DNA of 26,996 bases from a virus (IMGVR_UViG_3300006332_000026:1-26996), one strand, 5' to 3'; numbered from the stretch's first letter, positions 1,557 to 24,363 are shown. Program-made: numbers and translations. Notes: generated by a model from the sequence alone, not told the origin.

Positions 1557-1565
1557 GGAGCTGTA

Positions 1566-2123
1566 ATGTTTGTGTATACAAAAACCCCTACTATTGCGGT
1601 AGTAGACGGTATTATCTCTCCAGAAGAATGTAATCAAATAATTGAGCATTCAAGAGATAAGCTAGAAAGAAGTACAGTAGCAACTGATAAAGGCTTAGTT
1701 TCAGATAAGGATAGAACTTCTCATGGAACTTGGCTTAATCATTCTGAATTTTCAGAGGTATGTCAAAGGATTTCGGATATAGCGGCTATACCATTAGAAA
1801 GAGCAGAGCCTATCAATGTTCTGCGTTATACTGATGACCAAGAGTATAAACCACATTATGATGCGCTAGATGGGATGCATCTTGAGAATGGTGGACAAAG
1901 GTTATTAACTTGTATGCTATATCTGAATAATGCTGTAGGTGGGTCTACTGCATTTCCAAAATTAAATTTAATCATTGGTTCTATAGGCGGAAGATTATTG
2001 ATGTTTGGTAATGTTGATGAAAACAATCAGGCGCATGAGCTATCATTGCATCAAGGATTGCCGCCACATGAAGGTGAAAAATGGGTGATGACCTTATGGT
2101 TTCGAGAAAAGAAGATAAACTAG
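1566..2123 (+). CDS. Prolyl 4-hydroxylase-like 2-oxoglutarate/Fe(II) oxygenase (third of three)
   Basis: 185 residues and the most canonical of the three. 'YKPHYDAL' gives the HxD pair His97-Tyr98-Asp99, 'RLLTCMLYLNNAVGGSTAFP' is the characteristic P4Hc core strand region, 'GRLLMFGNVD' follows, and 'LHQGLPPHEGEKWVMTLWFR' supplies distal His162 and the 2-oxoglutarate-binding Lys172. The length equals a bare P4H catalytic domain. Ribosome site AAGGAG is at 1556-1561, 4 bases before the ATG. Established: P4H-type enzymes hydroxylate proline in proteins, and single P4H-like genes are known in marine phage structural regions. Target here unknown. A 28-base overlap with the next gene suggests coupling. 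Confidence 0.88.
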   Translation: MFVYTKTPTIAVVDGIISPEECNQIIEHSRDKLERSTVATDKGLVSDKDRTSHGTWLNHSEFSEVCQRISDIAAIPLERAEPINVLRYTDDQEYKPHYDALDGMHLENGGQRLLTCMLYLNNAVGGSTAFPKLNLIIGSIGGRLLMFGNVDENNQAHELSLHQGLPPHEGEKWVMTLWFREKKIN

Positions 2124-7856: not shown

Positions 7857-8277
7857 AGTATTACTTATAAGCCCAGAGGATGTTGATCTTGTATGGGATG
7901 AGGCAGAGCCATTAATAGACTTAGCACTTAGACATTCAGAGGGAGAGTTAATATCTTCTGATCTAATTCCAATTATAAAAAGTGGTGAACAGCAGTTATG
8001 GGTAGCCATAGAGGATAGCGAAGTGATAGCATCTATGGTAACAGAGATTATTTCTTACCCAAGAAAAAGAATATTAAGAGTAATAACAATAGGCGGAAAG
8101 GATGGAAGGGGTATAGATAAATGGTATACATTCCTACCTTTGATTGAAGGGTTTGCTTTAAAGCATGGATGCACATCATTAGAGGCATGGACAAGAAAAG
8201 GAATGGCAAGAAAGCTAAATGACTGGAAGAATTCATATATGGTTATAACTAAAGACTTAAAGCAGAGGATACAATAA
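7726..8277 (+). CDS. GNAT-like protein, possibly a T7 gp13-type internal virion protein
   Basis: 183 residues from the ATG at 7726, which has an excellent ribosome site (GGAGAGG, 7715-7721); the frame continues upstream but without a comparable signal. Residues 45-175 follow an acetyltransferase-like order: an N-terminal helix pair ('VDLVWDEAEPLIDLAL'), 'LWVAIEDSEVIASMVTEI' as central strands, 'RVITIGGKDG', and a C-terminal helix 'FALKHGCTSLEAWTRKG'. The acyl-CoA loop is not canonical, so catalysis is doubtful. A similar domain is found in small internal virion proteins of T7-like phages, and the next genes also look internal. It overlaps the previous gene by 131 bases. Confidence 0.6.
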   Translation: MPNRKDREKVTLDTPMGQTGTPEVGKESISLEREVPDLGSSSVKVLLISPEDVDLVWDEAEPLIDLALRHSEGELISSDLIPIIKSGEQQLWVAIEDSEVIASMVTEIISYPRKRILRVITIGGKDGRGIDKWYTFLPLIEGFALKHGCTSLEAWTRKGMARKLNDWKNSYMVITKDLKQRIQ

Positions 8278-9374
8278 TGGCTAGAGTTTTTAATTATGAG
8301 CCGGGGGTTAGGACTCCTCTTGATGTTTATACTGGAGTCATTCCAGAATTTGGTAGTGATGCAGAGATATGGGATCTAATTCGAGAGCATATGATTAATG
8401 TAGAGACTCCAGAAGTAAAGTGGAACCCTCAATCATTAATGACAATTCCTTTTCCAAACAAGTCGCCTGTAAAACCTGATAACAAAATTCCTCCCAATGG
8501 AACTGGAAAAGGTATTGGAACAGGAAGCGGAACTGGAATTGGCACTGGAAGCGGCACTGGAATTGGTACTGGAAGTGGAACTGGAGTTGGTACTGGAACT
8601 GGTACTGGAATTGGCGATGGAGATAGCAAAAAGACAGGAAGTGGCGATAAAGGCACTGGATCAGTTGTAACATCTAATACCGCTATAGATCAGGGGCTTT
8701 TAACTGCTCTGTCTCAAGCAGAACGAGAGGCCGAAGAAGCAGAAAGGCAACGACAGATTGATGAAAAGTTAGCTGAAGATGCCGCCGCAGAAGAAGAACG
8801 CCTAGCAGAGTTAAAAAGATTGCAAGATGCCAAGGAACAGCAAGATCTTCTTGATCAGAAACGACTACAAGAGCAGAATGAAATAGCAAGACTACAACAA
8901 GAGGAGGCAGATAAAGCGTTACAAAGGTTAAGCGATCTGCAAAAGTCTTCTCCAGTACAAGAATGGGTTAACCCAGATATGACAGGCTATACTTCAACTG
9001 AAGTTGATAGTGTAATAGATCAGTATTTGGAAGAGTTAGAGAGGCAAGAAGATTTAGCCGCCCAAGCATTACAGGATGAAATTACACGCAAGTTAGCTAA
9101 AGAGGCTTATGACAAAAGAAATGAGGAAGAAGAAAGAAGGAGAGAGGAAGAGGCGCAAGCAAACGCCAATGCTTTAGCGTTATCGGATGCTTTTGATTTA
9201 ACATTTGAGACTGATATTGCTTCTGCTGGAGGTGGAGATGCAGGTGGAGGAACTGGCGTTGTTCCTGCATATACTGTAGATTTAAATGCTTGGGTCAACC
9301 CAGATCAATCTACATTTGTAGACCCCGTATTCGTTGAAGAAGATCCTTGGTGGAAAAGAATTTTTAGCAGGTAA
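8277..9374 (+). CDS. Virion protein with Gly-Thr repeat and long coiled coil
   Basis: 365 residues in four visible parts: an N-terminal folded region (1-70); a low-complexity repeat (75-116) of the unit GIGTGSGT; a highly charged coiled coil (about 146-300) rich in Glu, Gln, Lys, Arg and Ala; and a C-terminal tail with a second Gly-rich spot and 'WWKRIF' near the end. There is no membrane helix. The segment 'WVNPD' occurs twice (near 230 and 289). The flexible linker plus rod fits an internal virion or ejected tail-channel protein, and its neighbours agree. No homologue can be named with confidence. Confidence 0.65.
   Translation: MARVFNYEPGVRTPLDVYTGVIPEFGSDAEIWDLIREHMINVETPEVKWNPQSLMTIPFPNKSPVKPDNKIPPNGTGKGIGTGSGTGIGTGSGTGIGTGSGTGVGTGTGTGIGDGDSKKTGSGDKGTGSVVTSNTAIDQGLLTALSQAEREAEEAERQRQIDEKLAEDAAAEEERLAELKRLQDAKEQQDLLDQKRLQEQNEIARLQQEEADKALQRLSDLQKSSPVQEWVNPDMTGYTSTEVDSVIDQYLEELERQEDLAAQALQDEITRKLAKEAYDKRNEEEERRREEEAQANANALALSDAFDLTFETDIASAGGGDAGGGTGVVPAYTVDLNAWVNPDQSTFVDPVFVEEDPWWKRIFSR
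8511..8606 (+). repeat. In-frame tandem repeat, 24-base unit, four copies
   Basis: Four consecutive 24-base units encode GIGTGSGT, GIGTGSGT, GIGTGSGT and GVGTGTGT, with related GT-rich codons on both sides (8499-8624). Within each unit the hexamer GG-n-ACTGG recurs, so there is a shorter 12-base period as well. Copies differ at third positions, so they are not a recent perfect expansion. Such repeats change length by slippage and act as flexible linkers. Confidence 0.9.
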
Positions 9375-11044: not shown

Positions 11045-12091
11045 ATGGCAGGATTACTAGGAAGGGGAGTATTAGCTGGGGCTAAACTTGTCAATAAGGG
11101 GAATCCTTTATGGAGCATTTTAGGCAGGGGAAGATTTAATCCACTTAGGGGGGCTAGGGAGGCAACGTATCGTGGACAACCATTTCCAGAGGGTGCTGCT
11201 ACTGGGACAGCAAGAACACGTACATCTGGCATTCCCGGAGGAACAACATTCAGACCTATCCCCGGCAAAGAGGGAGCATACAGAACAACGCATGGCGGAA
11301 CAGCTACAGGATCTACACTTCCTAAAAATGTATTGATGGACCCAAAGTTATATAATCCAGCTAGAACCACAGGATTTCTTAACCCAAGAGCGCACCCATA
11401 TAGGGCTGGTGCTGTTGGTGCTGCTGCTACACTTGGGTTACCTGCGCTTTGGCGAGGCGGTGAAGAAGAAATGCCTAATATTTCTGGAACACGGATGCCA
11501 CCCCCAGAAGTATCAATGCAAGGTCTTCCATCATACTCAGATAGGCTGTTCAAACAGAATGAACTTTTTTTTGATATGATGCAGGATGCTGTTACGAAGT
11601 CTGGTATTGTAGCGGCTATAGATGAAGAAGAGGGAGAAAATCTCCTGAAGAACATGAAAGAATTAATTTCACAAACAGTGACATATAAAAATGACTCTCA
11701 GCTGGCTAAGATAGCTGATGCGGCTTTAAAATCTACTGGCTCACCAAGTGAGATCTACCACAGAATGATAAAGGGAGGAGCCTCACCTGAAGAAGCTATG
11801 AAAGTATCTGGTCATCAAATAAAAATTAAAGATGCTACTATTGGAGACTTGTCAGCTAAAGAAAGAGTATGGGAAGGGATAGTACAGGTAGCTATGACAG
11901 GAGACATTACTCAAGCGGCGCAAATGCTTGTCCAAGCATGGGGTACTGGTCTTCTTGGAGGCGCACCTATGAGCGAGAACCCTGAGCAAAGAATGGAAAT
12001 AGCATTGCAATATCTTACACAATATATGCAAGGAGATACTGGCGTTGCTCCGGGCATGGGATCAGGGATAACGGATATAAGTGTAGCGTAA
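11045..12091 (+). CDS. Putative internal virion protein with one hydrophobic segment
   Basis: 348 residues. The basic N-terminal 110 residues are rich in Gly, Arg and Pro; a hydrophobic stretch 'AGAVGAAATLGLPALW' (about 120-135) could insert in a membrane; the C-terminal 200 residues are helical and acidic ('AAIDEEEGENLLKNMKEL'). A single potential membrane segment in a protein of the ejection module would fit a role in penetrating the cell envelope. ATG is preceded by GGGGAAAG. The stop overlaps the next start as TAATG, coupling it to the 1142-residue protein. The function is inferred; no family is recognised. Confidence 0.6.
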   Translation: MAGLLGRGVLAGAKLVNKGNPLWSILGRGRFNPLRGAREATYRGQPFPEGAATGTARTRTSGIPGGTTFRPIPGKEGAYRTTHGGTATGSTLPKNVLMDPKLYNPARTTGFLNPRAHPYRAGAVGAAATLGLPALWRGGEEEMPNISGTRMPPPEVSMQGLPSYSDRLFKQNELFFDMMQDAVTKSGIVAAIDEEEGENLLKNMKELISQTVTYKNDSQLAKIADAALKSTGSPSEIYHRMIKGGASPEEAMKVSGHQIKIKDATIGDLSAKERVWEGIVQVAMTGDITQAAQMLVQAWGTGLLGGAPMSENPEQRMEIALQYLTQYMQGDTGVAPGMGSGITDISVA

Positions 12092-15000
12092 TGCCAAGAA
12101 TAGGTTTTAAATATAATGGACAGGATTTAAGAGCCTCTGTTACTGATGAGTTTTTAACCCTTCCAGAAGAGGAACAAAGAAGGAGGCTAGAAGTCGACCT
12201 GCTGGACAAGCATGGCTTGAAGCCAAGACCAGAAGGAGAGAAAGGTTTTCTTCATAAACTTGGTTTGCTTGAAAGGCCAGCTCAAGCCTTAAAGGTTGGT
12301 GTAAAAGAAAGCCTTATTGGTGGAAGCCTATATAAAGCATTGGGTCAGGTAGACCCAACACCACAAGAGGGTGTGCTGACTGGCTTAAAAAGAGGATGGT
12401 TAGGTGAGGACGAGATAAGAACCCAAGACTTCCTTCCTGATGATATGCCCGGATGGTTAAAGGGTACACTAGGTTTTGCTGGGGATGTTCTTACTGACCC
12501 TTTAACATACTCTGGCGGCCTAATAGGTAAAAGTATTTATACGGCAGGGCAAGGCATTAAAGCAATGACACCTAGACCTGTTGCTCTTGCGTTGCAGTCT
12601 ATTAAAGAGAACGATAAGTTTACAGACTTTGCTAGAGCTATGAACGTTCCAGTGGGTGATGCAAAGAAAGTTAAGAGTGCCGCAACAGAAACAAATAGAG
12701 TGGCAAAAGAAGTTGAGCTTGAAATGGCTAGGGAAATTCCTATACTTAGGAAGTGGCTAGAAGATAAAGCAAGAAGGACTGGGAAGACCACGCAATCTAT
12801 TCATTGGGCTATGCGTAATTGGATGGATAGAAAAAAGATTATGGTAGACCATGAAGGAAAACCATTAACCTCGAATTGGTATGAGGAGGATGGTAAAATT
12901 TTTGCTGGAGACTCTAAGAGGCCCGATGCTGCTAACGTAGCAATACAAAAAGAAAATGATCTTCTTAAAGAGAAGGTCACAGATGTTCTGGGTAAGGATG
13001 GTGTTAGATATGTTGATGAATGGACAGACAAACTAGAAGAGATACTAAAGAAAGAAAAGGGTGAAGGCATATACGTTATGTCTACACTGATGAGGCACTA
13101 TTTTCCTAGACGGCAAACCCCAAAGGGGCGTGAGGTATCTGAGGCGAAACTAGCTGGAGAAGAATACTTCCCTGAAGAGTTTGGTGACTTGAATGATCCG
13201 GCAATCTACATCCCTAGAGAACACTATAGGCACGGTAGAATACATGGGGAAAAAAGTGCTGACGAAATAAACGCAGAAAAGTTTTCCATCATGGATGGTG
13301 TTGGCCCTGTTAATGAGGCTGATATACCGTACATGAATTCTTTCTTTCATACAGATCCTTCTCTAGCTATAGGGTTAAGATGGGCTGAGTCAGCTACGTC
13401 AAGACAAAAGAAAAGATTTATAGATATGGTTACAGACTGGAGGCCAATGAACAGGAAGCCAGTAGAAGACCCAATGCCTTTTATGAATGTTGGAAAGTGG
13501 GTTAGACCAGATCCAGATAATGCTGGGATGTTCCAGCAAAGGATAATGGGTAAGGATGGTAGAAATAACTGGGTTCCAGTAGACAAAGAAACCGCTACAT
13601 ATGTAGACGTTGAAGGCATAGCTCCAAAGTTTGTAGAGGAAGTAGAGATAAGAAGGGCGGCAGAGCTAGCAGAGATAACTGCTTATGCTTTAGCGAGAAA
13701 GTCTGGTGTTGCACCTAAAGATGCTATAAAAGTAAGTCGTGAAGCATTTGAAAAATCTTGGAATGAAGCGCCCAAGATTTCCATGAGGTTCAAGGCTCCG
13801 AAAAATGTATCCAAGCAAATAACTCAGCAATTAAATTTGATGGGGGCATCTACACCCGGAAGCAAGGAGCTTAAAAAGTTTTTTAAATTCTTTGATGCGA
13901 TCCAAGATCCTTGGAAAGCATGGACTCTAGCTGTAAGACCAGCATATCATACTCGTAATGCAATAGGGAATATTCTAAATGCTTATGTTATTACAGGGTT
14001 AGGATCTAATATACCAAAAGCTGTAGAGACTTTTAAAGATGCGGCTAAACTGCAATACTATGCAAGGTTTGAAGGAAGCAATGGATTAAAGAAGCAAACA
14101 GTAGACAGACTAAAAGAGATGAATAAGACAGGTCAAGCTGGGTTTGTAGAAGGCATTCCTGATTTAGATGATGCTCTATGGTTTGCCGGAGATTATGGTG
14201 GCACTGGGTTCTCTATGAAAAGAATTACAGAAGAGGCACTGAATAGAGGGATAACAGCAGGACATTATCATAAAGATATTAATCGTGATTTAATTTCTAA
14301 ATTAGAGGCTGGTGCTGGAAAGGGAAGATACCCAAAGTTACAAAGAACTCTGGGTGTTGAGGCTAAACCTATCAAATGGGGCTTTGCATTTGGCGGAACT
14401 ATTGAAGGCAATGCAAGATACGCTGTGTTTATGAACACATTAAGAAAGATGAAAGATGGAGAAGATCTTGATTGGATAGCACCAGATGGAACGAAGGTTA
14501 AGCTATCACAGTTTGATGGAGATCATGATTACTGGACTACAGATTTAAAAGAAGTTCCTCCTTGGACTACACCAGATGGGAGAGAGTTTGACGGGTACTA
14601 TAAAAAAGTAAATAGACGAATGACTAAAGAGGACGCTATGTTTGATATAGCATCTAATGAAGTTAAGGCATCTCTCTTTGATTACTCTGATCTATCTGTA
14701 TTTGAAAGAGACTGGATGAAAAGATTAATGCCTTTCTACACATGGACTAGAAAGAACTTTCCTGCACAGCTTAAACAACTTGTCCTCAATCCTCAACGTG
14801 CAGAGAAATTGCACATAGCTAAAGAGCAATTCGAGCATGAAACAGGAGACATGGACTTCTCAGATTATGGAGCCTTCTGGGGTAAGCGTGTTCCAGTTTT
14901 CTTAGGCAAAGAAAGCAAGGGGGTAGTTAAGGCTTTTACTCTTTTGAACACAGTTCCTTTAGCAGAGTTACAGAGAATGTATCATCCCAAGGAGCTTATT

Positions 15001-15519
15001 TCTGAAATGATCTCTCCTCTTCCTAAAGAAATCTTTGAGCAAATCAGCAACTACGATTCGTTTAGACAGAAACCAATCGTAGGGTACGAGGGAGAAAGTA
15101 AAGATTTTCTAGGTGTTGCATTACCATCTCGGTTATGGAAATTAGTACAGCTAATGGTTCCATTAACAGAAATTAATAGACTTAATCCGGGTGGGGTATT
15201 TGGAGAAAGGATAGTTGACCCAGCAACAGGACAGCAAACAGTTTCCAAGGCATTCGGTGGGTTAGGAGCCATGAGGGAAAGTGGTCCTGCGGATATATCT
15301 GAGGCCGCTAGATGGATAAGGTTCTTTTCAGGTGTTAGAGTTTATGATATTAATATAGAAAAGCAAAAATATTTTATGAATAAAAATCTTAAGAAGGATC
15401 TTTCGGCCTTAAAGGGGAAATTGAAATGGGCGCAAGCTAAAGGAGAGAACAGGAAAGCTCAACAAATTCTTGAGTTAATAGATGCTATCTTGCTTCAGCA
15501 ATCAACTGACCCAATGTAA
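12091..15519 (+). CDS. Very large putative internal virion (ejection) protein
   Basis: 1142 residues, the largest gene here, with no signal peptide. Visible blocks: 'GFAGDVLTDPLTYSGGLIG' near 128-146; a charged region near 200-330; 'WKAWTLAVRPAYHTRNAIGN' near 608-627; and 'LMPFYTWTRKNFPAQLKQLV' near 879-898. The motif of aromatic-x-rP-x-yh-x-RN-x-x-GN and the 'P[FY]-x-W-x-R-x-N-x-P' block are shared by large proteins of marine podoviruses that occupy the place of T7 gp15/gp16, and by large polyvalent phage proteins. No lysozyme or transglycosylase motif is seen. Position last in the virion block supports ejection into the host. Confidence 0.65.
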   Translation: MPRIGFKYNGQDLRASVTDEFLTLPEEEQRRRLEVDLLDKHGLKPRPEGEKGFLHKLGLLERPAQALKVGVKESLIGGSLYKALGQVDPTPQEGVLTGLKRGWLGEDEIRTQDFLPDDMPGWLKGTLGFAGDVLTDPLTYSGGLIGKSIYTAGQGIKAMTPRPVALALQSIKENDKFTDFARAMNVPVGDAKKVKSAATETNRVAKEVELEMAREIPILRKWLEDKARRTGKTTQSIHWAMRNWMDRKKIMVDHEGKPLTSNWYEEDGKIFAGDSKRPDAANVAIQKENDLLKEKVTDVLGKDGVRYVDEWTDKLEEILKKEKGEGIYVMSTLMRHYFPRRQTPKGREVSEAKLAGEEYFPEEFGDLNDPAIYIPREHYRHGRIHGEKSADEINAEKFSIMDGVGPVNEADIPYMNSFFHTDPSLAIGLRWAESATSRQKKRFIDMVTDWRPMNRKPVEDPMPFMNVGKWVRPDPDNAGMFQQRIMGKDGRNNWVPVDKETATYVDVEGIAPKFVEEVEIRRAAELAEITAYALARKSGVAPKDAIKVSREAFEKSWNEAPKISMRFKAPKNVSKQITQQLNLMGASTPGSKELKKFFKFFDAIQDPWKAWTLAVRPAYHTRNAIGNILNAYVITGLGSNIPKAVETFKDAAKLQYYARFEGSNGLKKQTVDRLKEMNKTGQAGFVEGIPDLDDALWFAGDYGGTGFSMKRITEEALNRGITAGHYHKDINRDLISKLEAGAGKGRYPKLQRTLGVEAKPIKWGFAFGGTIEGNARYAVFMNTLRKMKDGEDLDWIAPDGTKVKLSQFDGDHDYWTTDLKEVPPWTTPDGREFDGYYKKVNRRMTKEDAMFDIASNEVKASLFDYSDLSVFERDWMKRLMPFYTWTRKNFPAQLKQLVLNPQRAEKLHIAKEQFEHETGDMDFSDYGAFWGKRVPVFLGKESKGVVKAFTLLNTVPLAELQRMYHPKELISEMISPLPKEIFEQISNYDSFRQKPIVGYEGESKDFLGVALPSRLWKLVQLMVPLTEINRLNPGGVFGERIVDPATGQQTVSKAFGGLGAMRESGPADISEAARWIRFFSGVRVYDINIEKQKYFMNKNLKKDLSALKGKLKWAQAKGENRKAQQILELIDAILLQQSTDPM

Positions 15520-15872
15520 TGAAGAGGTTATTAATTATTTTAATGCTAACAGCCATGCCAGCTTCAGCACAAATGAGGGTATTGGAGATCCCTGTAACCG
15601 CTATCTGCTGGGACTCATTAGAAGAGGTTATAGATCACCATAAGAAAACATTAAGTGAGTACCCTATAATAAAATTATACAGCGATCATGAGAATGGAGG
15701 GGCTTTGTTGGTCAATCCTGACAATACGAACTGGACGTTTGTTGCTTTTAAAACACATCCAGTAACAAAGAAAACTGTAGCTTGCGCTTTCTTTATTGGT
15801 ACAGCGTGGAGCATTGTTAAACCACCTGAACCAGATAAGGACACTAAGAATGACGAATGGATTACACTTTAG
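15519..15872 (+). CDS. Exported small protein, function unknown
   Basis: 117 residues beginning with a clear Sec signal peptide: a KR start, hydrophobic LLIILMLTAM, and a cleavage site after Ala17 (P-A-S-A). The mature part has two Cys (30 and 89), which could form a disulfide in the periplasm, and a beta-type core ('GGALLVNPDNTNWTFVAF', then 'KTVACAFFIGTAW'). The start overlaps the stop of the 1142-residue gene (TAATG). It opens a run of envelope-directed small genes. It may act in superinfection exclusion, lysis timing or adsorption control; none can be chosen from sequence alone. Confidence 0.72.
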   Translation: MKRLLIILMLTAMPASAQMRVLEIPVTAICWDSLEEVIDHHKKTLSEYPIIKLYSDHENGGALLVNPDNTNWTFVAFKTHPVTKKTVACAFFIGTAWSIVKPPEPDKDTKNDEWITL

Positions 15873-16101
15873 TAGAGGCGTGTCCTTTGGACATATCATT
15901 GCAACCGTAGGCATTATAGTAGCAGGGTTTACATTTATCTATGATCTTCGTGAAGCTATCAGCATCCTTCAGTTTAAGGGCGAGACAGTTGAACAGAGAC
16001 TAGATAGAATTGTAACAAGAACAGATGACCAGTTCGATCAGATTATGGATCATCTAATTAGAATAGAAGAGCAAATAGATTCATTAAAAGAGGAAGAATA
16101 A
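15850..16101 (+). CDS. Single-pass membrane protein with C-terminal coiled coil (inner-spanin-like shape)
   Basis: 83 residues from the ATG at 15850, preceded by AAGGA at 15837-15841. The frame is open upstream from a TTG, but that part lies in the preceding gene. A short N-terminus (13 residues) is followed by a membrane helix 'HIIATVGIIVAGFTFIYDL' (15-33), then a heptad-like coil ('EQRLDRIVTRTDDQFDQI', 'RIEEQIDSLKEEE'). N-in topology with a coiled coil outside resembles inner-membrane spanin subunits, or a small holin-type or virion membrane protein. The similarity is architectural only. The next gene starts immediately after its stop. Confidence 0.65.
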   Translation: MTNGLHFSRGVSFGHIIATVGIIVAGFTFIYDLREAISILQFKGETVEQRLDRIVTRTDDQFDQIMDHLIRIEEQIDSLKEEE

Positions 16102-16752
16102 ATGAGTAAAGTTTTAGCATTGGTATTGATGTTGTCACCACTGGGTGTGTTGGGTGCTGATTTAGGTAAGATAAATGTAGATACAAATATAAGTTCGGAA
16201 GGAATAAGTTTAGGTCTTGACGATCAGGGTGTATACAGTATAGCTGTGGCTAACGAGGGGTATTCATTCTCGTTTGATGATAGTGATAACAACGTAAGCC
16301 TTGGTGCATATGGTGTGAGTCTTAGCACATCTGATTCAAAGAACATTGGAGTGGGGTACGGTTTGGGTATAGGATTCTTTGATGGAGATGTTCATTATAA
16401 TCACATGAACAACGGAGATCACGTTGTAGGAGGGGCTACCACGCTCACAGTTGGGGGTGTTGGCCTTGAAACCTCGCTAGATTGGAACGTGAGTGGCCGA
16501 AAAATAGACGGAAAAGCTGGATCTTCCATAGATTTATGGGGAGCTACAGGATCAGTAGTATCTAATTGGGACGTAAAGAACTTTTCATATAAAGGATTAG
16601 ACCTTAGCGCAGGGTACTCGATACCAGTATCAGATGGATTAAGTATTACCCCAGTTGCAAGCATGGGTATAGATGATAGCTGGGCAAGAGGTGATCTCAA
16701 GGTAGGTCTGTCTTTAGGTATATCATTCGGAGGAAAGAATGGCAATCTCTAA
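16102..16752 (+). CDS. Secreted, outer-membrane-barrel-like protein
   Basis: 216 residues with a signal peptide (MSKVLALVLMLSPLGVLGA, likely cut after Ala19). The mature part is nearly free of Cys and built of alternating polar/hydrophobic strands separated by Gly/Asp/Asn/Ser turns, for example 'GVYSIAVANEGYSFSFDD', 'KNIGVGYGLGIGFFDGDV' and the last strand 'GDLKVGLSLGISFGG'. About 8-12 such strands would give a small beta barrel. A phage-encoded outer-membrane protein could mask a receptor or help lysis. Alternatively this could be a soluble beta protein in the periplasm. The start ATG follows the previous stop directly (TAA-ATG). Confidence 0.62.
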   Translation: MSKVLALVLMLSPLGVLGADLGKINVDTNISSEGISLGLDDQGVYSIAVANEGYSFSFDDSDNNVSLGAYGVSLSTSDSKNIGVGYGLGIGFFDGDVHYNHMNNGDHVVGGATTLTVGGVGLETSLDWNVSGRKIDGKAGSSIDLWGATGSVVSNWDVKNFSYKGLDLSAGYSIPVSDGLSITPVASMGIDDSWARGDLKVGLSLGISFGGKNGNL

Positions 16753-16948
16753 ACATCTTAAATTTGTAGGTGAGTCATATGTCAAGCATCTACTATTTAA
16801 TATTAAACTATCTGTACAGTTAATATTATTATCCTTAGTTGCTATAATACATGGGCTATTACCTTGGTTCCTAATAGACCTAATATCAAACTCTTTAAAT
16901 AAGATAACAACTAAACTGAATAACAGAGGAAAAATGGTGGATGAATAA
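16739..16948 (+). CDS. DUF6356-like small membrane protein
   Basis: 69 residues. 'HLKFVGESYVKHLLFN' (6-21), then the hydrophobic 'SVQLILLSLVAIIHGLLPWFLI', then 'SNSLNKITTKLNNRG'. The combination of 'vGE[ST]Y..H', a helix, 'IH..LP' and a C-terminal basic helix matches the DUF6356 family as I recall it; members are single-pass inner-membrane proteins of unknown role found in marine bacteria and their phages. It overlaps the preceding barrel-like gene by 14 bases (ribosome site GGAGG at 16730-16734) and is coupled to the Fe-S carrier gene by a TAATG. Confidence 0.72.
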   Translation: MAISKHLKFVGESYVKHLLFNIKLSVQLILLSLVAIIHGLLPWFLIDLISNSLNKITTKLNNRGKMVDE

Positions 16949-17247
16949 TGACAATCACCGAGGAAGCGCAACAAAAAATAACAGAAGTTTTAGATGGGGA
17001 TGGATATTTGGCTATATACGTGGAAGGTGGCGGATGCTCCGGCTACAAAATAAAGCTAACACCAAGCCCTACCTTACCAGAGGATGCCTCTATGATTACA
17101 GACAATATATACTCTGATGGCGATTCCATTAACCTACTTGGAGATGCAGTTATGGATTGGGAAGCAGACCCTTTCAGACCCACATTTAAGTTTATACCTC
17201 CAACGGGATCACATTCCTGCGGATGTGGCTCATCGTTTGCTTTCTGA
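16948..17247 (+). CDS. A-type Fe-S cluster carrier (HesB/IscA-like)
   Basis: 99 residues, the usual length. The three cluster-binding cysteines are in the canonical places: Cys30 in 'EGGGCSGYKI' and Cys91 and Cys93 in 'SHSCGCGSSF', with the start 'TITEEAQQKI' typical of the family. Established: IscA/HesB proteins bind and hand over [2Fe-2S] or [4Fe-4S] clusters during Fe-S protein maturation; HesB-like genes are known in some marine phages. The region between (about 38-85) has diverged from bacterial IscA. It sits among membrane-protein genes rather than near the RNR or nuclease genes, so its client is unclear. Start overlaps the upstream stop (TAATG). Confidence 0.92.
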   Translation: MTITEEAQQKITEVLDGDGYLAIYVEGGGCSGYKIKLTPSPTLPEDASMITDNIYSDGDSINLLGDAVMDWEADPFRPTFKFIPPTGSHSCGCGSSFAF

Positions 17248-17277
17248 AAAATATAAAAAACCAAAAAGAAAAAGACT

Positions 17278-17706
17278 GTGGAAACGCCGCTAAATGTAAG
17301 CGATAATACTAAGTTTGCAATGCCAGTGAGAAACTTAATCTCACTCATTATTGCAGTAGCATTGGGAGTGTGGGCATACTTTGGTATAGTTGAGAGGTTA
17401 AATAAAATTGAGACTCAAATGGTTTTGTTTGAGTCTGATCTGGTAAAGAATACGGAGTTCAGAATTAAATGGCCTCGTGGCGAGCTAGGGGCATTGCCTG
17501 CGGATGCCGAACAGTTCATGCTTATTGAACACTTATCAGGGGAGTTTGATAAACTTCTAGATAACATTGAAACAGGCAAGGCTCCGTTTGACCAACAGCA
17601 AGCACTTACTTTAGAGTTTTATAAGCAAAGAATAGAGAGCCTTGAAGGACACGTAGAGAAATTAAAGGATGACTTATCGTCTATCAAGGCGAATGGGGGA
17701 CACTGA
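17278..17706 (+). CDS. Single-pass membrane protein with coiled coil
   Basis: 142 residues if begun at GTG 17278; an in-frame stop lies 8 codons upstream. An ATG at 17320 (MPVRNL) is an alternative, but has no better ribosome site. A membrane helix 'NLISLIIAVALGVWAYFGIV' (19-38) is followed by 'LNKIETQMVLFESDLV' and a C-terminal coil ('YKQRIESLEGHVEKLKDDL'). The segment 'SDNTKFAMPVRNLI' recurs in a family of marine phage proteins of unknown role, which supports the GTG start. A short N-terminus, helix and coiled coil are compatible with a spanin-like or virion membrane protein. A 30-base A-rich gap precedes it. Confidence 0.65.
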   Translation: METPLNVSDNTKFAMPVRNLISLIIAVALGVWAYFGIVERLNKIETQMVLFESDLVKNTEFRIKWPRGELGALPADAEQFMLIEHLSGEFDKLLDNIETGKAPFDQQQALTLEFYKQRIESLEGHVEKLKDDLSSIKANGGH

Positions 17707-17957
17707 TGGTCAAAGTAATGTTTGTTCTAATACTATACCTTAATGGTGGAATCATAGAGTTTATGGGACACCATGAGAAAGATGGTGAATGGGTGGAGAT
17801 GGGAGTACCCGGATGCCTTGCTATGAAGAGAACCCTGTCGCGTAACGGATGGAAGGACAGCGATTCAGGTGAGACTAGATACTCATGTGAAAAGAAAAAG
17901 GTTGAGGTTGGAGACAATTGGGAGGGCAGAGAGGTGGTTAAGAAACTGCTAGACTAA
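17706..17957 (+). CDS. Small Cys-containing protein with hydrophobic N-terminus
   Basis: 83 residues, coupled to both neighbours (TGATG at 17704-17708, TAATG at 17955-17959). The N-terminus 'MVKVMFVLILYLNGG' is short and hydrophobic, perhaps a strand or an uncleaved anchor rather than a proper signal peptide. The pattern Cys37 ('PGCLAMKRTLSRNGW') and Cys61 ('RYSCEKKKVEV') resembles a small marine phage family with 'CL..KR...........C'. No function is known. It lies in a cassette of envelope-directed proteins and may act with its coiled-coil and MscS-like neighbours. Confidence 0.65.
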   Translation: MVKVMFVLILYLNGGIIEFMGHHEKDGEWVEMGVPGCLAMKRTLSRNGWKDSDSGETRYSCEKKKVEVGDNWEGREVVKKLLD

Positions 17958-18304
17958 TGGATCTAAATACCCTGTCTATGGACACAAGCATTAAGATTAC
18001 TACATTCTTAATGCCTTGGATAACCATCCTTATAAGTTTGATTATAGCTTTAATGTTGAAAGAGATTGCCTCTTCAATAGCTAAAGGGTTGAAGTTTAAA
18101 ATGTCTAAAGTATTTGTACCGGGAGATGTTGTTTTACTTGATGGGGATGAGGCCATAATAATCAAGGTTGGATTGACAACCACCGTATTTGAAAGCATAC
18201 GTGATGAAGGATTAATATGGAGGTATGTCCCCAATGAAAAAGTGCAGTCACTAAAATTAGAAAAAGTAATACGTACAGATGTACGTGAAACAAACGGTGA
18301 ATAA
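17957..18304 (+). CDS. Minimal MscS-like membrane protein
   Basis: 115 residues. One long hydrophobic segment ('FLMPWITILISLIIALMLKE', 17-36) is followed by a basic amphipathic helix and then 'FVPGDVVLLDGDEAIIIKVG' (53-72), 'TTTVFESIRDEG' and 'WRYVPNEKV'. The order 'f.pGD.v...g..g.i..i....T.i....g....vPN' is that of the pore-proximal helix plus beta domain of MscS channels. Here the outer helices and the C-terminal cage are missing, since MscS has about 286 residues. It could still assemble as a ring in the inner membrane and act in osmotic balance or lysis. That is inference; a virion role cannot be excluded. Confidence 0.62.
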   Translation: MDLNTLSMDTSIKITTFLMPWITILISLIIALMLKEIASSIAKGLKFKMSKVFVPGDVVLLDGDEAIIIKVGLTTTVFESIRDEGLIWRYVPNEKVQSLKLEKVIRTDVRETNGE

Positions 18305-18319
18305 CTATGGAGACAATGA

Positions 18320-18415
18320 ATGAAGAAACTAAAAGAGCTAGCACAAGGAAACAAATTCATATGGGTTCTTTGTATCGTGGGTGTTGTATTGGTTTACTGG
18401 CTCTCGCCCTTGTAG
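18320..18415 (+). CDS. 31-residue single-pass membrane microprotein
   Basis: An ATG at 18320 with a well-spaced GGAG (18309-18312) opens 31 codons ending at TAG 18413-18415. The product has a basic start (MKKLKELAQGNK), a helix 'FIWVLCIVGVVLVYWL' and a two-residue tail, the shape of a small N-in membrane peptide. The gene shares its last 55 bases with the start of the lipoprotein gene in another frame. Translation from the nearby ATG 18307 or 18316 would instead extend the lipoprotein frame, but a signal peptide would then start too far inside. The assignment of two separate starts is my preferred reading. Confidence 0.5.
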   Translation: MKKLKELAQGNKFIWVLCIVGVVLVYWLSPL

Positions 18416-18765
18416 GATGCGGATCACTAAAGAAAGCAGCAATAGTGGGAACTGCGGCAGGGTTAGGTGCGACTGCTGGGAGTGTGATCTCTGGGGGTGT
18501 GATTGCACCCATAGCGGCTTCCACGATGAGTGCCTCTGTAGCCTCTGTAGTGGCGGATCAGACGGTGAAACAGCCTACCCCTACTCAGCCTCTTGAAGTA
18601 GCAGGTGATGCCACTATAGTACAGGAAGCGCCCTCTAATTTCTTTGATCTCTTAGGAGAGTTAATTAGTATGGGCGGATGGTTACTTATATTAATCGTTG
18701 TAGTGCCAATGGTATTAGGATGGATTATCCCCGGACCCCTGACAACACACAAAAAGAAACGCTAG
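18361..18765 (+). CDS. Lipoprotein with C-terminal membrane helix
   Basis: 134 residues from ATG 18361 (AAGGA at 18345-18349, 11 bases before). The signal peptide is MGSLYRGCCIGLLALALVG, followed by the lipobox LVGC with Cys20 as the lipidation site. After this come a Gly/Ala hydrophobic segment ('AAIVGTAAGLGATAGSVISG'), a Pro/Thr/Gln linker, and a second hydrophobic segment 'GGWLLILIVVVPMVLGWIIP' near the end with a KKKR tail. In-frame ATGs further upstream would put 18 polar residues before the signal and are less likely. The lipoprotein could be an outer-spanin partner or an exclusion factor; the C-terminal helix is unusual for an outer spanin. Confidence 0.68.
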   Translation: MGSLYRGCCIGLLALALVGCGSLKKAAIVGTAAGLGATAGSVISGGVIAPIAASTMSASVASVVADQTVKQPTPTQPLEVAGDATIVQEAPSNFFDLLGELISMGGWLLILIVVVPMVLGWIIPGPLTTHKKKR

Positions 18766-19016
18766 TCATTATAGTCTGGAAGGACATCGTACAGGTAGCA
18801 GACTGGACACCTGCTAGCGAGGTTAGCTGTCCAACATTCCAGAGTATAGGATGGTTAGTATCTGAATCTGAAGAAGAAATAAAAATAGGGAGTACACTTG
18901 TGGTCGATGCAGATGATCCACAAGGTACTCCCTTTGGCATTACAGCCTTTCCCAAGGGCTGTGTGCAGGAGATCAGGCGACTAAGGCTTGCGGAACCAGC
19001 TTATCAGCAGTCCTAG
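18720..19016 (+). CDS. Conserved small phage protein; last rightward gene
   Basis: 98 residues from ATG 18720 (the frame is open to 18678 but that part is in the lipoprotein gene). Features: 'VIIVWKDIVQVADWTPASEV', 'TFQSIGWLVSESEEEIKIGS' and 'PFGITAFPKGCVQEIRRL'. The layout 'v.W.Di....gW.......c.t.GW......iki......g....iPkGCi..i..L' recurs in small cytosolic phage proteins of unknown function. The gene contains a long inverted repeat (18887-18933) that probably terminates the opposite-strand transcript. Its 3' end overlaps the leftward exonuclease gene by 44 bases. Confidence 0.7.
   Translation: MDYPRTPDNTQKETLVIIVWKDIVQVADWTPASEVSCPTFQSIGWLVSESEEEIKIGSTLVVDADDPQGTPFGITAFPKGCVQEIRRLRLAEPAYQQS
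18877..18933 (-). terminator. Intrinsic terminator of the leftward operon, inside a rightward gene
   Basis: Read on the minus strand: a 16-base arm (18933 to 18918) pairs with 18903 to 18887 apart from one bulged base, around a 14-base loop, and is followed directly by ATTTTTATTTC. Arms on the plus strand are AGGGAGTACACTTGTGG and CCACAAGGTACTCCCT. A long GC-containing stem followed by a T-rich tract is the classic intrinsic terminator form, and it lies 40 bases beyond the last leftward stop codon (18973). In the plus orientation there is no T-tract after the stem. Confidence 0.85.
18942..18962 (+). other. Small hairpin near the end of the rightward transcript
   Basis: ACAGCC (18942-18947) and GGCTGT (18957-18962) form a 6-bp stem with a 9-base loop, 8 bases after the larger inverted repeat. 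It lies near the 3' end of the rightward gene and between the leftward stop and its terminator. No T-tract follows on either strand, so this is not called a terminator. It may help block the opposing polymerases or be incidental. Confidence 0.4.
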
Positions 19017-19677
19017 ATGATGACCATGAACCACAATCTTTACATTGCCATGTTTGATATACTCTAGTTTTGGTTCTTCTTGTCCCTCTCTTAACTACCT
19101 TATGCGATCCACACTTAGGACAACTAGCTTCACCCTTCTCGTTTGTTATCAATGGATGCCCCTTTGTTAAAGGTCTTAACAAATGATACGCTTCTTCTAA
19201 CATCTTCACATCTTCCTTGCAGTGCTTAACCACTGTGTTCATATGTTTCTTACTTCCTGCTATCGCTTTGATCCAAGCACCCTGATCTATAGGAGTCTTG
19301 CTTGCATTAAGATTAAGGAACCTCTCGATGTTAGCAAGCCTGTTACTCGATAACTTTAACTGATACCTTGATGTTCTCCATAAATCAACATGAGCTATGT
19401 GTGTTGACATAGGATTTTTCCTATGATACAATAGCCTAGCTTGCAGGAATGGTACATCAAACCTAGATCCATACCATGACACCCACATATCTGCTTCGTT
19501 AAGTGCCTCGCTTAATGCCATACATACACCAGAGTCATCCATTATATCTTTCTGTTTATAATCTGTTATCCTAAATGTATCTAGCTTACCATTATCCCAC
19601 TTAATACAGCCACATATTATCACTCCCCAATCTGCGTTGAGGTTAGAACATTCTAAATCTAAATGTGCTATCTTCAT
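18973..19677 (-). CDS. DnaQ-like 3'-5' exonuclease with C-terminal zinc ribbon
   Basis: 234 residues. The RNase H-like exonuclease signature is present: Asp7 and Glu9 (HLDLECSNL), Asp74 in 'SWYGSRFDVPFLQ', and 'HCKEDVKMLEEAY' with His152 and Asp156, in the order Exo I, II, III. The C-terminal 55 residues hold a four-Cys ribbon, CPKCG (186, 189) and CKDCG (212, 215), with basic residues between (KRGTRRTKTRV), suggesting DNA or RNA binding. It fits a stand-alone predicted exonuclease (RNase_H_2 type). It is the last leftward gene, and its start overlaps the upstream stop by 4 bases. A DNA-repair or host-DNA-turnover role is likely. Confidence 0.82.
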   Translation of the reverse strand: MKIAHLDLECSNLNADWGVIICGCIKWDNGKLDTFRITDYKQKDIMDDSGVCMALSEALNEADMWVSWYGSRFDVPFLQARLLYHRKNPMSTHIAHVDLWRTSRYQLKLSSNRLANIERFLNLNASKTPIDQGAWIKAIAGSKKHMNTVVKHCKEDVKMLEEAYHLLRPLTKGHPLITNEKGEASCPKCGSHKVVKRGTRRTKTRVYQTWQCKDCGSWSSSRTADKLVPQALVA

Positions 19678-21357: not shown

Positions 21358-21667
21358 TCTCCTCTCCTATTATATCATATTTAAAAGCCTTGTCAAGTGT
21401 ATCAAAAATAAATAATGGTTGACAAGCTAGGATACTTTTGTCTCCGCTGTGTAAAGCACTATGGCAACCATGGCACAAAGGCATTGCTAGCCAGTCGTTT
21501 GATTTCAAACCAAGTCCTTTATTACCTACCCTTCCTGCTATAGAACTGATGTTAATAGCATGATGTGGTACTATAGTCTCATCCTCTAGCCCACAGTTGG
21601 CACATGGTAAGGTAGCTATCCAGTCAAGATACTTTCTGTTTTGCCACCGCTTGCTCTTCTCTAGCAT
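21302..21667 (-). CDS. HNH-type endonuclease-like protein
   Basis: 121 residues from ATG 21667 (TTG just before it gives the longer reading). Ribosome site GGAG is 7 bases upstream. Motifs: 'YLDWIATLPCANCG' with Cys22 and Cys25, 'IVPHHAINISS' with His35-His36, and 'PLCHGCHSALHSGD' with Cys65, Cys68, His69 and His73. This is the order of the HNH/beta-beta-alpha-metal nucleases of the DUF968/Ref type found in phages. Established: Ref-type proteins cut DNA at RecA-made displacement loops; others are homing or recombination nucleases. The C-terminal 45 residues are Lys/Arg-rich. Overlaps its neighbours on both sides. Confidence 0.8.
   Translation of the reverse strand: MLEKSKRWQNRKYLDWIATLPCANCGLEDETIVPHHAINISSIAGRVGNKGLGLKSNDWLAMPLCHGCHSALHSGDKSILACQPLFIFDTLDKAFKYDIIGEENDLRRKSRKISGVSSRKR
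21369..21396 (-). promoter_or_regulatory. Sigma-70-type promoter inside the HNH gene
   Basis: On the minus strand TTGACA (21396-21391), a 16-base spacer and TATAAT (21374-21369), with TG one base before the -10 (extended form). All twelve hexamer bases are consensus. The expected start site (about 21361) is only 4-5 bases before the ATG of the 107-residue gene, so a transcript from here would be nearly leaderless for that gene, though it would serve all genes downstream. Confidence 0.62.
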
Positions 21668-22232
21668 CAACTAACTCCAGTATCTTATTGATTATAAAAG
21701 TTTTATCACATTGAAACCACTCGCCTTTGACTCTATACTTAGATAGAGCTTGATGCACTTCCTTCTCTAAGGTTGCACAATCATCCACCATCTCTGACTC
21801 CCAGACGCTTTCAAAATCCCCCCATGTATTAGCTTGGTTTAATCTTTCTTGTGGGTTATGGGATGCACCTACCTTATAATAGTATAGCCACCCATTTACA
21901 GACTTCATGTGATCTTTAAAGATATAAACAAAACCTCTTGGATCATCAGGCTTAAAGATCGTAACCCTTTTACCCTTGGGTCTTTGTACTTTGGGTAGCT
22001 TTCGATGCGCCCTATAAGTAGGGGTGTTAGAAGAAACGTAGACACTTTTGTACTTGCAGTATTCTTCTCTTGCTCTATCAATTAATTTTTGTCGTTCATT
22101 TTTAGGCAGCGCATAATAGTTTGTAAATCCACCAGCTAATTTATAGTATATAGGTCGAAGTCTATTCCGTACCCTCTGCACTTCTGGATTATCCTTGTAG
22201 TATTTACCATCTATCTTTGTGTAACTGTTCAT
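21624..22232 (-). CDS. T5orf172/GIY-YIG-like nuclease domain protein
   Basis: 202 residues from the ATG that overlaps the RNR stop (ATGA, 22229-22232); a longer upstream reading lies inside the RNR gene. Residues 1-95 are basic ('YALPKNERQKLIDRAREEY', 'KLPKVQRPKGKRV') and likely bind DNA. Residues 98-185 carry 'RGFVYIFKD', 'YYYKVGASHNPQERLNQ' and 'TLEKEVHQALSKYRVKGEWF'. The order of G-[FY]-vYI, yKvG-x-s-x-nP-x-R, lE-x-x-vH, gEWF is that of the T5orf172 domain, a GIY-YIG relative. Tight coupling to RNR suggests a homing-type gene or an operon member. Confidence 0.82.
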   Translation of the reverse strand: MNSYTKIDGKYYKDNPEVQRVRNRLRPIYYKLAGGFTNYYALPKNERQKLIDRAREEYCKYKSVYVSSNTPTYRAHRKLPKVQRPKGKRVTIFKPDDPRGFVYIFKDHMKSVNGWLYYYKVGASHNPQERLNQANTWGDFESVWESEMVDDCATLEKEVHQALSKYRVKGEWFQCDKTFIINKILELVDAREEQAVAKQKVS

Positions 22233-23872
22233 AAGTTGCATACTCCTGATAAGCATTGTTCCTCACTGTTATCCTCATAGATGACACCTCTCTTCGAGTG
22301 CGCTTCTTCATAAGGTACAGTAGTGATTGGTTGACCACCCCTTGATCCATCAGGGTAGATTGTTAAGCCCCTTAATCCAGAGGCATACTTCTTAACTAAT
22401 GACATAAACGGTATTACTTTATCCTCATTGTTTAAGTCTGTTCCCCATGCAGGTATGTTTATCGTGGAACTAATTGCATGATCCACATACTTCTGTAAAT
22501 CATATTGAAACTTAATCCTTCTTTCTGGGTCAGTTGCTAGATCAACAGCCGACTCTATATCTTCTGGCTTAATGCCATTATCTATTAGTGCTTGTGCCGT
22601 ACCGTCAACGACAAACTGATGCTTCCATCTTGTCCCATCTGTAAGATAACGTCTACGGTATGCGACTGCATAGATTGGCTCAACCCCTCCAGTTGTTCCA
22701 GCAAGGATGCTAATAGTTCCTGTTGGGGCAATGGCTCTGTATCCTTTAGGTCGGTTAAGAAATAATCTATCGCAGTGGTCATTAGCACTTCTCGTGCTTT
22801 CTGATTCATATATTTTCATCCATTGTTTAAGTTCATCGTTCATCTCATACTTATGTCCACGCTTTAATAGCCATTCATGCAAGCCCATTAAGCCCAGACC
22901 TATACGAGAATTCTTTTGTCTTACCTTTCCTACTTTATCATAAGGTAAGTGCGCTCTTATCAACCCACAAACAAGAAACTTAGACGCGAGACTAACCACA
23001 TCTTTAAGCTCCTCAATCGTATCAATATTCGCAAGGTTAACAGACCCAAGATTACATACATCACTGTCATCTTCTGACGTAATCTCAGTGCAAGCGTTTC
23101 GTAAAGTCTCATTCTGTTTGTCTCCAAAGTTAAAAGAAAATCCTGGCTCACCTGTCATCAGTGCTTGCCTGCAATTCTCTGTGAATACTTCGCTACCATT
23201 ACCATGTAGCCATGCGTCATCATAATTAAGACTGATGTTCATCATGTCTAACGGAGCAGGATAATTAAAGTTTGCTTTCTTTGCATCAGCAACTGTGATA
23301 TTAGACCCTTCGATCTTTATATCATGCCAGTTCTTTACCTTGAGTAAATGTCTAGCATCTTCATGTTGCCAGTTCATGCTACCATACAGGGCAGACCTAC
23401 GGCTGCCACCCTGCATAACATTCCTACCTATCTCATTGAGAGTATAGAGTAAAGGAATGGGGCCAGATGCCACGCCACCTGTCCTACGCAATTGTCTGCC
23501 TGATGGTCTACACAAACTAACATCAGCACCTATACCACCACCTGTCATCAGACAAGACATTGCTCTTTGTGACAATCCGGCCCACTCCTCCCTGCTATCT
23601 TCCTCTAACCTCAATAAGTAGCAGTTGTTAAAAAACCTAGCATCTCTGCCAGAATACCAGAGGTATCTACCTCCGGGCATAAACTTAAACTCACTGATGT
23701 ACTGCGTCAGTTGATCCCTATCGCTCTTAGCCATAAGGTTATTCTTCTCTCCATCCATGTCACCACACACCCAATTAACTACAGTGTGCGCTCTATCTTC
23801 CCATGTCTCATAGGTATTAGATGCGTACTTTTGCTTGAAGATTGTCTCTCCTAGACTTGTCTTGAATGGCAT
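22229..23872 (-). CDS. nrdJ: Class II (B12-dependent) ribonucleotide reductase
   Basis: 547 residues, reducing ribonucleotides to deoxyribonucleotides for DNA replication. Catalytic marks: 'FFNNCYLLR' with Cys84; 'GGGIGADVSL' (111-120); 'RNACTEITSEDDSDVCNLGSVNL' read in two parts, with radical-site Cys261 in N-x-C-x-E and Cys273 in 'DVCNLGS'; 'APTGTISILAGTTGGVEPI' (352-370); and a terminal redox pair C-x4-C (Cys540, Cys545) in 'QCLSGVC'. No small (R2) subunit gene is present nearby, which fits the adenosylcobalamin-dependent class. The length is shorter than usual NrdJ (about 700). Ribosome site AGGAGAG. Preceding gene overlaps it by 56 bases. Confidence 0.88.
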   Translation of the reverse strand: MPFKTSLGETIFKQKYASNTYETWEDRAHTVVNWVCGDMDGEKNNLMAKSDRDQLTQYISEFKFMPGGRYLWYSGRDARFFNNCYLLRLEEDSREEWAGLSQRAMSCLMTGGGIGADVSLCRPSGRQLRRTGGVASGPIPLLYTLNEIGRNVMQGGSRRSALYGSMNWQHEDARHLLKVKNWHDIKIEGSNITVADAKKANFNYPAPLDMMNISLNYDDAWLHGNGSEVFTENCRQALMTGEPGFSFNFGDKQNETLRNACTEITSEDDSDVCNLGSVNLANIDTIEELKDVVSLASKFLVCGLIRAHLPYDKVGKVRQKNSRIGLGLMGLHEWLLKRGHKYEMNDELKQWMKIYESESTRSANDHCDRLFLNRPKGYRAIAPTGTISILAGTTGGVEPIYAVAYRRRYLTDGTRWKHQFVVDGTAQALIDNGIKPEDIESAVDLATDPERRIKFQYDLQKYVDHAISSTINIPAWGTDLNNEDKVIPFMSLVKKYASGLRGLTIYPDGSRGGQPITTVPYEEAHSKRGVIYEDNSEEQCLSGVCNL

Positions 23873-24170
23873 ATCTCTCTCCTAATTTATTCTCTTTGGC
23901 AAATTTAATATATTCAACAAGCGGTATACCCTCTCTCTGTTTAAACACACCGTCCCAAGGAATACCAGATGGTGCTATCTTATGTCTATTTCTATAGCAC
24001 CACCTAGCAAACCAGTAACGTCTACCCTCAAACCTTCCATCACCGAATGGCTCATCAAGTAGGGTTAACTTCGTAACGTCTATCGTGGGTCGTGTTTTCC
24101 CATACGCCTTTGTGATGGGACGCAACGTATTCTTCTTCTTTTTGCTTCCTTGATAGTACCATTTTTTCAT
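23817..24170 (-). CDS. Hypothetical basic protein upstream of RNR
   Basis: 117 residues from ATG 24170, the second of two close ATGs, chosen because AGGA sits 5 bases before it. Lys/Arg-rich at both ends ('MKKWYYQGSKKKKNTLRP' and 'DKSRRDNLQAKVRI') with a compact aromatic centre ('GRRYWFARWCYRNRHKI', 'GIPWDGVFKQREGIP'). It overlaps the upstream gene by 116 bases and RNR by 56, both real frames by their ribosome sites. A nucleic-acid-binding role is possible. No family is recognised. Confidence 0.6.
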   Translation of the reverse strand: MKKWYYQGSKKKKNTLRPITKAYGKTRPTIDVTKLTLLDEPFGDGRFEGRRYWFARWCYRNRHKIAPSGIPWDGVFKQREGIPLVEYIKFAKENKLGERYAIQDKSRRDNLQAKVRI

Positions 24171-24363
24171 AAGCATCCTGCATATTATCTAGTGTACCTA
24201 CACTTATTTCGCTCCATTTGCAACCCCAACCTATCTGTTCAAAGACTTTATCGGCAGATCGAACAAACTCCTTATTCGCCTTACGACATTGCCAAGTATC
24301 AATAGCAAGCTCGTGTTCATTCTTCAACCTTCTGTCGGATTTAGGTGTTGTCTTCTTAGCCAT
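24055..24363 (-). CDS. Hypothetical charged protein
   Basis: 102 residues from ATG 24363, which has a good ribosome site (CAGGAGA). The upstream in-frame ATG at 24405 lies within the previous gene. Features are a basic N-terminus (AKKTTPKSDRRLKNEHEL), one WQC motif and helical acidic/basic stretches ('MQDAYEKMVLSRKQKEEEY'). The C-terminal end shares 116 bases with the next gene in another frame. The product has no recognised family. It belongs to the operon between the Erf/single-strand-annealing-like gene and RNR. Confidence 0.6.
   Translation of the reverse strand: MAKKTTPKSDRRLKNEHELAIDTWQCRKANKEFVRSADKVFEQIGWGCKWSEISVGTLDNMQDAYEKMVLSRKQKEEEYVASHHKGVWENTTHDRRYEVNPT

Follow-up and report, generated by a model that had tools for sequence, protein, structure and literature searches.

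What does a marine phage do with a tightly packed run of small genes closing its late operon, most of whose products are directed to the envelope, when none of them is a recognisable endolysin? The question is raised by positions 15519-18765 of the virus sequence IMGVR_UViG_3300006332_000026:1-26996, hereafter the window, which is the entire 26,996-base record and is classed as linear (such records are often fragments). The initial annotation of this region left two readings side by side, lysis by unfamiliar parts or remodelling of the host envelope. Comparison with related phages favours the former, and we consider it fairly probable that the cassette, comprising genes G1 to G11 (Table 1), chiefly supplies the membrane-disrupting part of a module for lysis. 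We prefer this reading to remodelling because G10 has the topology of a spanin, because the membrane-peptide gene G9 that overlaps it is conserved, and because the G6-G7 pair recurs close to genes for endolysins and Rz/Rz1-like proteins in other marine phages. We retain as an alternative that G1 and G3, being exported, remodel the envelope or exclude superinfection.

A recurrent cassette after the virion genes

The rightward genes upstream of the cassette encode tail and virion proteins, the last of them a protein of 1142 residues (12091-15519) whose stop codon overlaps the start of G1 (TAATG). The predicted run of about ten small genes is present where the initial annotation placed it, with ten packed rightward genes, G1-G10, within 15519-18765; it extends, however, into an eleventh gene, G11 (18678-19016), that belongs to the cassette. 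The gaps between these genes are almost nil, and the cassette then meets a leftward block of DNA-metabolism genes. Gene-order comparison with related phages found homologs of G1-G8, G10 and G11 arranged alike in independent viral contigs, which indicates that the open reading frames are real genes.

Co-occurrence was counted at the 37 G10 loci with enough flanking sequence. A signal-peptide protein (G1 or related) is present in 32 of these and a helix-plus-coil protein (G2, the c104 family or G6) in 33, while individual families are found less evenly: G2 in 26, the IscA-like gene and G11 in 24 each, DUF6356 in 22, G6 with G7 in 16, G3 in eight and G8 in six. At three loci without G6-G7 (L102, L105 and L106), c104 sits between G4 and G5. 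These counts, together with this arrangement, therefore describe a recurrent core plus an optional part. In the window and several relatives the cassette comes after the last internal virion gene, and in the relative contigs G001, G005 and G009 it is kept as a block at a different position. Searching the cassette region for promoters and terminators with simple scans yielded nothing usable. The 1142-residue virion protein was considered both as a hydrolase and as a route to relatives, and was set aside since our searches gave it no domain and no match; relatives surfaced later through its neighbours.

Most cassette products carry export or membrane signals, so that the expectation of nearly universal export was largely borne out. 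The HesB/IscA-like carrier G5 is probably not the sole cytosolic product, however, as had been supposed, because G7 is also predicted to be soluble.

A lipoprotein family with spanin-like topology

A unimolecular spanin is defined by an N-terminal lipoylation signal and a C-terminal transmembrane domain, and none of the 58 published examples has a periplasmic cysteine (PMC6139136). Since G10 matches this description in both signals, its predicted topology is that of a unimolecular spanin. The lipobox in the window is LVGC, and the window protein has no periplasmic cysteine beyond it. In an alignment of 15 homologs, all keep the lipobox cysteine and the C-terminal helix, and the motif GGWxLxLxxxxPMxxxWxxPGP followed by basic residues is kept at the C-terminus. 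Among 98 intact homologs, the helix and basic tail are universal, and 94 have a lipobox by a relaxed definition (74 by a strict one), compared with 16 of 2154 background open reading frames that have both features. When viral contigs were scanned with the G10 alignment, 250 relatives could be confirmed, long contigs included.

An overlapping membrane-peptide gene

G9 begins with an ATG that has GGAG seven nucleotides upstream. Across the region encoding the G10 signal sequence, 78 of 94 loci contain a +1-frame open reading frame of at least 25 codons, and two more have one in the +2 frame. When the codons of G10 were swapped synonymously, preserving the G10 protein, only 37.8 ± 3.9 loci retained such a frame in either register, with a maximum of 48 in 100 rounds. 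Locus pairs are not independent, an effect that is largely avoided in a comparison over ten clusters sharing less than 60% identity: nine of the ten have an overlapping frame that encodes a membrane helix, against a null of 1.36 ± 0.95 (maximum four in 500 rounds). A GGAG- or AGGA-type motif lies upstream of most G9-type frames. Moreover, at sites with the same amino acid in aligned G10 homologs, codons are identical at 60% inside the overlap and at 48% outside it. Since the overlapping frame far exceeds the synonymous-shuffle null, also across divergent clusters, we conclude that G9 is a genuine gene overlapping G10.

G6-G7, a widespread pair often found near endolysin genes

At least 599 relatives of G6 were confirmed in viral contigs, and G7 accompanies G6 in 79 of 81 loci. 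G6 also occurs in 45 phage records, 40 of them named Pelagibacter phages, and each of the eight sampled records contains G7 as well. The open papers that we searched ascribe lysis in such phages solely to a lysozyme or a peptidase M15 (PMC6811365 and PMC10504331). In HTVC027P, G6, G7 and a peptidase M15 gene are consecutive; in HTVC019P, S35-C6 and HTVC041P the pair lies shortly upstream of terminase or maturase genes, and in the first two of these a lysozyme gene follows it. Outside the lineage of the window, 25 of 67 loci have a GH24 or M15 endolysin gene no more than 3.3 kb from G6 and no locus has one at 3.3-6 kb, although 163 kb was available there (p ~8e-5, a value inflated by relatedness). 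The endolysin labels were checked against Pfam on examples. Overlapping Rz/Rz1-like pairs accompany G6-G7 in nine loci, an association that does not reach significance by itself (p 0.17). Because G6 lies near endolysins in other phages, we infer a lysis-associated role for the pair, more likely at the inner membrane or regulatory than as a spanin.

A single N-terminal helix is predicted in 109 of 113 intact G6 homologs, a feature that together with the coil is of the i-spanin type; the G6 profile gave only weak matches, to designed coiled coils. The structural model of G7 (predicted local distance difference test score, pLDDT, 90) is a small alpha/beta domain in which the hydrophobic N-terminal stretch forms a beta strand, and two cysteines are invariant in the alignment. 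This model has no fold match in the PDB, its good matches being solely uncharacterised viral proteins. Judged by the model, G7 is probably not exported; having a compact domain and no lipobox, it does not resemble an o-spanin lipoprotein.

Several narrower assignments were considered and dropped. G6-G7 is not a simple Rz/Rz1 pair, given the soluble G7 and the separate Rz/Rz1-like pairs that coexist with it. A secreted antiholin resembling T4 RI is unsupported for G7, whose N-terminus is a strand in the model. A two-helix neighbour family (cluster 8) once taken for a holin of the gene transfer agent type had no Pfam support, and the association was recomputed with endolysins and Rz/Rz1-like pairs only. 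Separately, a small cysteine-containing family (cluster 29; L064:2137-2379, L067:5756-5992) is encoded upstream of G6 in other phages; its layout is like that of G7, with a hydrophobic start followed by spaced cysteines.

No recognisable endolysin

No peptidoglycan hydrolase domain is recognisable in any cassette gene (Pfam, PHROGs) or in the scanned proteins of the window. Its absence from the window proves little, because the record is linear and family scans of its proteins found no terminase, portal or capsid genes. A stronger fact is the same absence in two relatives that appear circularly complete, to which the original statement that no endolysin can be recognised thus extends. G002 has 39,748 bases with identical ends of 112 bases, and G003 has 39,607 bases whose ends overlap over 1178 bases at 92%, giving about 38.4 kb. 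SU10-like portal, capsid and adaptor proteins are among the products that Pfam recognises in them, along with terminase, ribonucleotide reductase, a helicase-type ATPase and nucleases, and no peptidoglycan hydrolase appears among the families listed (25 of 27 for G002). Searches with PF00959, PF08291, PF01510, PF05838, PF01551, PF13539, PF01520 and PF07486 were negative over 17-21 contigs of the lineage, whereas known lysozymes were detected in the phages used as a positive control.

One sub-threshold match to PF01464 (18.3 bits) was obtained for a 168-residue SLT-like protein of relative G007 (L200:1862-2368), with an E...GIWQF motif; its gene lies two genes upstream of that for the terminase small subunit. 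In relatives G003 and G010, the slot near the terminase holds a DUF6356 gene and a gene for a protein of 235-240 residues with the HExxH motif HELRH (L191:10499-11221). The DUF6356 gene has thus moved to the terminase in these two relatives and adjoins the candidate hydrolase gene there. The window lacks this slot. The SLT-like and HExxH proteins may be divergent wall hydrolases, and the endolysin is probably divergent, encoded in the terminase-proximal segment missing here, or an unrecognised virion protein. A divergent hydrolase in the terminase-proximal slot would be the simplest answer; lysis that dispenses with such an enzyme is conceivable but improbable. Proteins of 532, 686 and 874 residues that adjoin the terminase in relatives showed no domain and were set aside.

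Weighing the alternatives

Gene order, conservation, sequence topology, the reality of G9 and the association of G6-G7 with lysis genes are the observations from which functions may be proposed. The cassette would probably be expressed together with the late genes. Its small inner-membrane proteins, at least one of G9, G4, G2 and G6, would perforate or depolarise the inner membrane and so time lysis, with G7 probably working with G6. A wall-cutting enzyme would be encoded outside the cassette, and once it had acted, G10, lipid-anchored to the outer membrane and fixed in the inner one by its C-terminal helix, would draw the membranes together, as is thought for unimolecular spanins. G1, G3, G5, G8 and G11 would be accessory or passenger genes. 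Several findings weigh against a lysis module. No cassette gene passed a curated lysis-family cut-off, and for the possible holins G4, G9, G2 and G6 there was no significant Pfam or PHROGs holin match, only a weak one to phrog_1296. The cassette also contains an IscA-like protein, and perhaps a barrel and an MscS domain, none of which is a lysis protein. The loci are related, and the statistics overstate independence. Finally, the periplasmic part of G10 is rich in glycine and alanine and 39 of the 74 strict-lipobox homologs have a further cysteine, both of which differ from published unimolecular spanins; for these reasons we do not file G10 as a member of that group and regard its spanin function as putative.

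If the cassette instead served envelope remodelling, for example superinfection exclusion or late protection of the outer membrane by G1, G3, G8 and G10, the lysis genes would lie elsewhere. The dominance of exported or membrane products and the possibility that G3 is an outer-membrane barrel would fit this, and lipoproteins do serve superinfection exclusion in some phages. Yet G3 and G8 are optional, the constant parts being the bridging lipoprotein and the helix-plus-coil proteins, and G6-G7 associates with endolysins, so that we consider remodelling unlikely. The cassette begins where a virion gene ends, their start and stop codons overlapping, which might suggest minor virion or DNA-ejection components. 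This is very improbable, as virion proteins would not be expected to carry signal peptides or a lipobox, and G6-G7 accompanies many different sets of virion genes and is also found next to genes for DNA polymerase or terminase. It is also conceivable, though we give it very little credence, that a widespread lineage of tailed double-stranded DNA marine phages lyses its hosts without any peptidoglycan hydrolase of its own, G9 acting in the manner of single-gene lysis and G10 opening the outer membrane. The two complete relatives and the eight negative family searches agree with such a scheme, as does the layout of G9, a soluble part followed by a transmembrane part as described for MS2-L (PMC10688784). 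However, missing profile matches are weak evidence, and the SLT-like and HExxH proteins may be the divergent hydrolases that this scheme denies. To our knowledge, moreover, single-gene lysis occurs in single-stranded RNA and single-stranded DNA phages and not in tailed double-stranded DNA phages.

Other genes of the cassette and window

Table 1. Genes of the cassette, with positions counted from the first base of the window.
Gene	Position	Strand	Product	Support
G1	15519..15872	+	Small exported protein, 117 residues, signal peptide ending ASA|Q, MKRLLIILMLTAMPASA	Homologs in same place
G2	15850..16101	+	83 residues, N-terminal membrane helix and coil	phrog_12220, 23.5 bits
G3	16102..16752	+	216 residues, signal peptide, beta-rich; possible outer-membrane barrel	Alignment A2
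G4	16739..16948	+	69-residue DUF6356 membrane protein	PF19883, 47.9 bits (cut-off 24.4)
G5	16948..17247	+	IscA/HesB-type Fe-S carrier, 99 residues	PF01521, 31.5 bits (cut-off 26.3)
G6	17278..17706	+	Up to 142 residues, N-terminal membrane helix and coil	phrog_20984, 96 bits; alignment A7
G7	17706..17957	+	83-residue soluble alpha/beta protein, two invariant Cys, partner of G6	Alignment A1; model, pLDDT 90
G8	17957..18304	+	115 residues, membrane helix, possible MscS beta-domain (sub-threshold)	Alignment A6
G9	18320..18415	+	31-residue single-helix membrane peptide, +1 frame overlap with G10	Synonymous-shuffle tests
G10	18361..18765 (18307 alternative start)	+	Lipoprotein, C-terminal membrane helix, basic tail	Alignment A3; intact homologs
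G11	18678..19016	+	Conserved protein of ~112 residues, overlaps 3′ end of G10, last gene	phrog_25889, 25.7 bits

Two products named in the initial annotation, the DUF6356-like protein and the HesB/IscA-like carrier, are clearly G4 and G5, whose profile scores exceed the Pfam cut-offs. G5 carries the motifs GGGCSGY and CGCG and belongs to the Fe-S_biosyn family, and G4 is, by its context only, a holin candidate. The name MscS-like is a weak one for G8, which scores 17.0 bits against MS_channel_2nd (cut-off 20.2) and has no significant PDB match. The sequence of G3, the product labelled barrel-like, is beta-rich, and a model shows an antiparallel strand ladder with low confidence (pLDDT 45); the barrel itself is putative. 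A single N-terminal helix is found in 42 of 48 intact G2 homologs, and the G11 family occurs in 63 loci.

The IscA-like and DUF6356 genes are repeated in the cassettes of some relatives: G011 (L207/L208, ~21600-24200) and G015 have three IscA-like and two DUF6356 genes, and another locus (L023:4283-4906) has two tandem IscA-like genes. Three consecutive genes near the left end of the window (264-2123), within the late block that also holds the IscA-like gene, have PHROG matches to 2OG-Fe(II) oxygenase or related families. At 8277-9374, a protein of the virion region has a long GTGTGIGTGSG-type repeat and then a charged helical stretch. An exonuclease-like protein (phrog_403; 18973-19677) has a zinc-ribbon-like C-terminal tail, CPKCGS...CKDCGS, and the 3′ end of its gene overlaps that of the convergent G11.

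Hosts and significance

The G6-G7 pair suggests phages of SAR11-like bacteria, although the guanine-plus-cytosine (GC) content of the window (40.6%) and its relatives (~41-46%) is higher than that of the sampled pelagiphage loci (30-36%). Bacterial genomes did not lead to a host, the matches being limited to two contigs of one Marinimicrobia metagenome-assembled genome that may be misbinned phage. When phages lyse SAR11 and similar ocean bacteria, dissolved carbon is released, yet the genes described here are annotated as hypothetical in the phages of these bacteria. They now form a testable list of parts, with G6-G7 in 45 phage records, most of which belong to Pelagibacter phages from several lineages, and a spanin-like lipoprotein family of 250 relatives, while G9 is an overlapping membrane-peptide gene of the kind that gene callers tend to miss. 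Within the literature searched, the following appear to be new: that G6-G7 is so broadly distributed among marine phages, that a large family shares the spanin-like topology of G10, that the overlapping G9 is a real and conserved gene, and that no endolysin can be recognised in complete relatives.

Comparison with known systems

The closest parallel to G10 is with unimolecular spanins of the phage T1 gp11 type (PMC6139136), with which it shares an N-terminal lipobox and a C-terminal membrane helix in one small protein that likewise ends a cassette of membrane proteins. G10 differs in its Gly/Ala-rich periplasmic part, where the published proteins are predicted to be beta-rich, in the extra cysteine of about half its strict homologs and in the overlapping membrane-peptide gene, and it is known from sequence alone. 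G9 resembles MS2 L (PMC10688784) in having a basic N-terminus followed by one membrane helix and in overlapping another gene. However, G9-type peptides have 30-58 residues and occur in a tailed double-stranded DNA phage with other lysis-like genes, and we do not claim homology. Relative to Rz/Rz1 of lambda, G2 and G6 share the i-spanin-like layout of one N-terminal helix and a coil, and G9/G10 are likewise overlapping genes, a layout used by Rz/Rz1, whereas G7 is soluble rather than a lipoprotein and G6-G7 coexists with separate Rz/Rz1-like pairs. In HTVC010P, HTVC019P, HTVC027P and other Pelagibacter phages, the homologs of G6 and G7 are a pair annotated as 'fibrinogen-like coiled coil protein' or hypothetical; the lineage of the window has a higher GC content, carries G1-G5 and G8-G11 in addition, and lacks an endolysin gene next to the pair. 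With SU10-type podoviruses, finally, the complete relatives share the portal, capsid and adaptor families, but they have no Pfam-recognisable endolysin and carry the present cassette.

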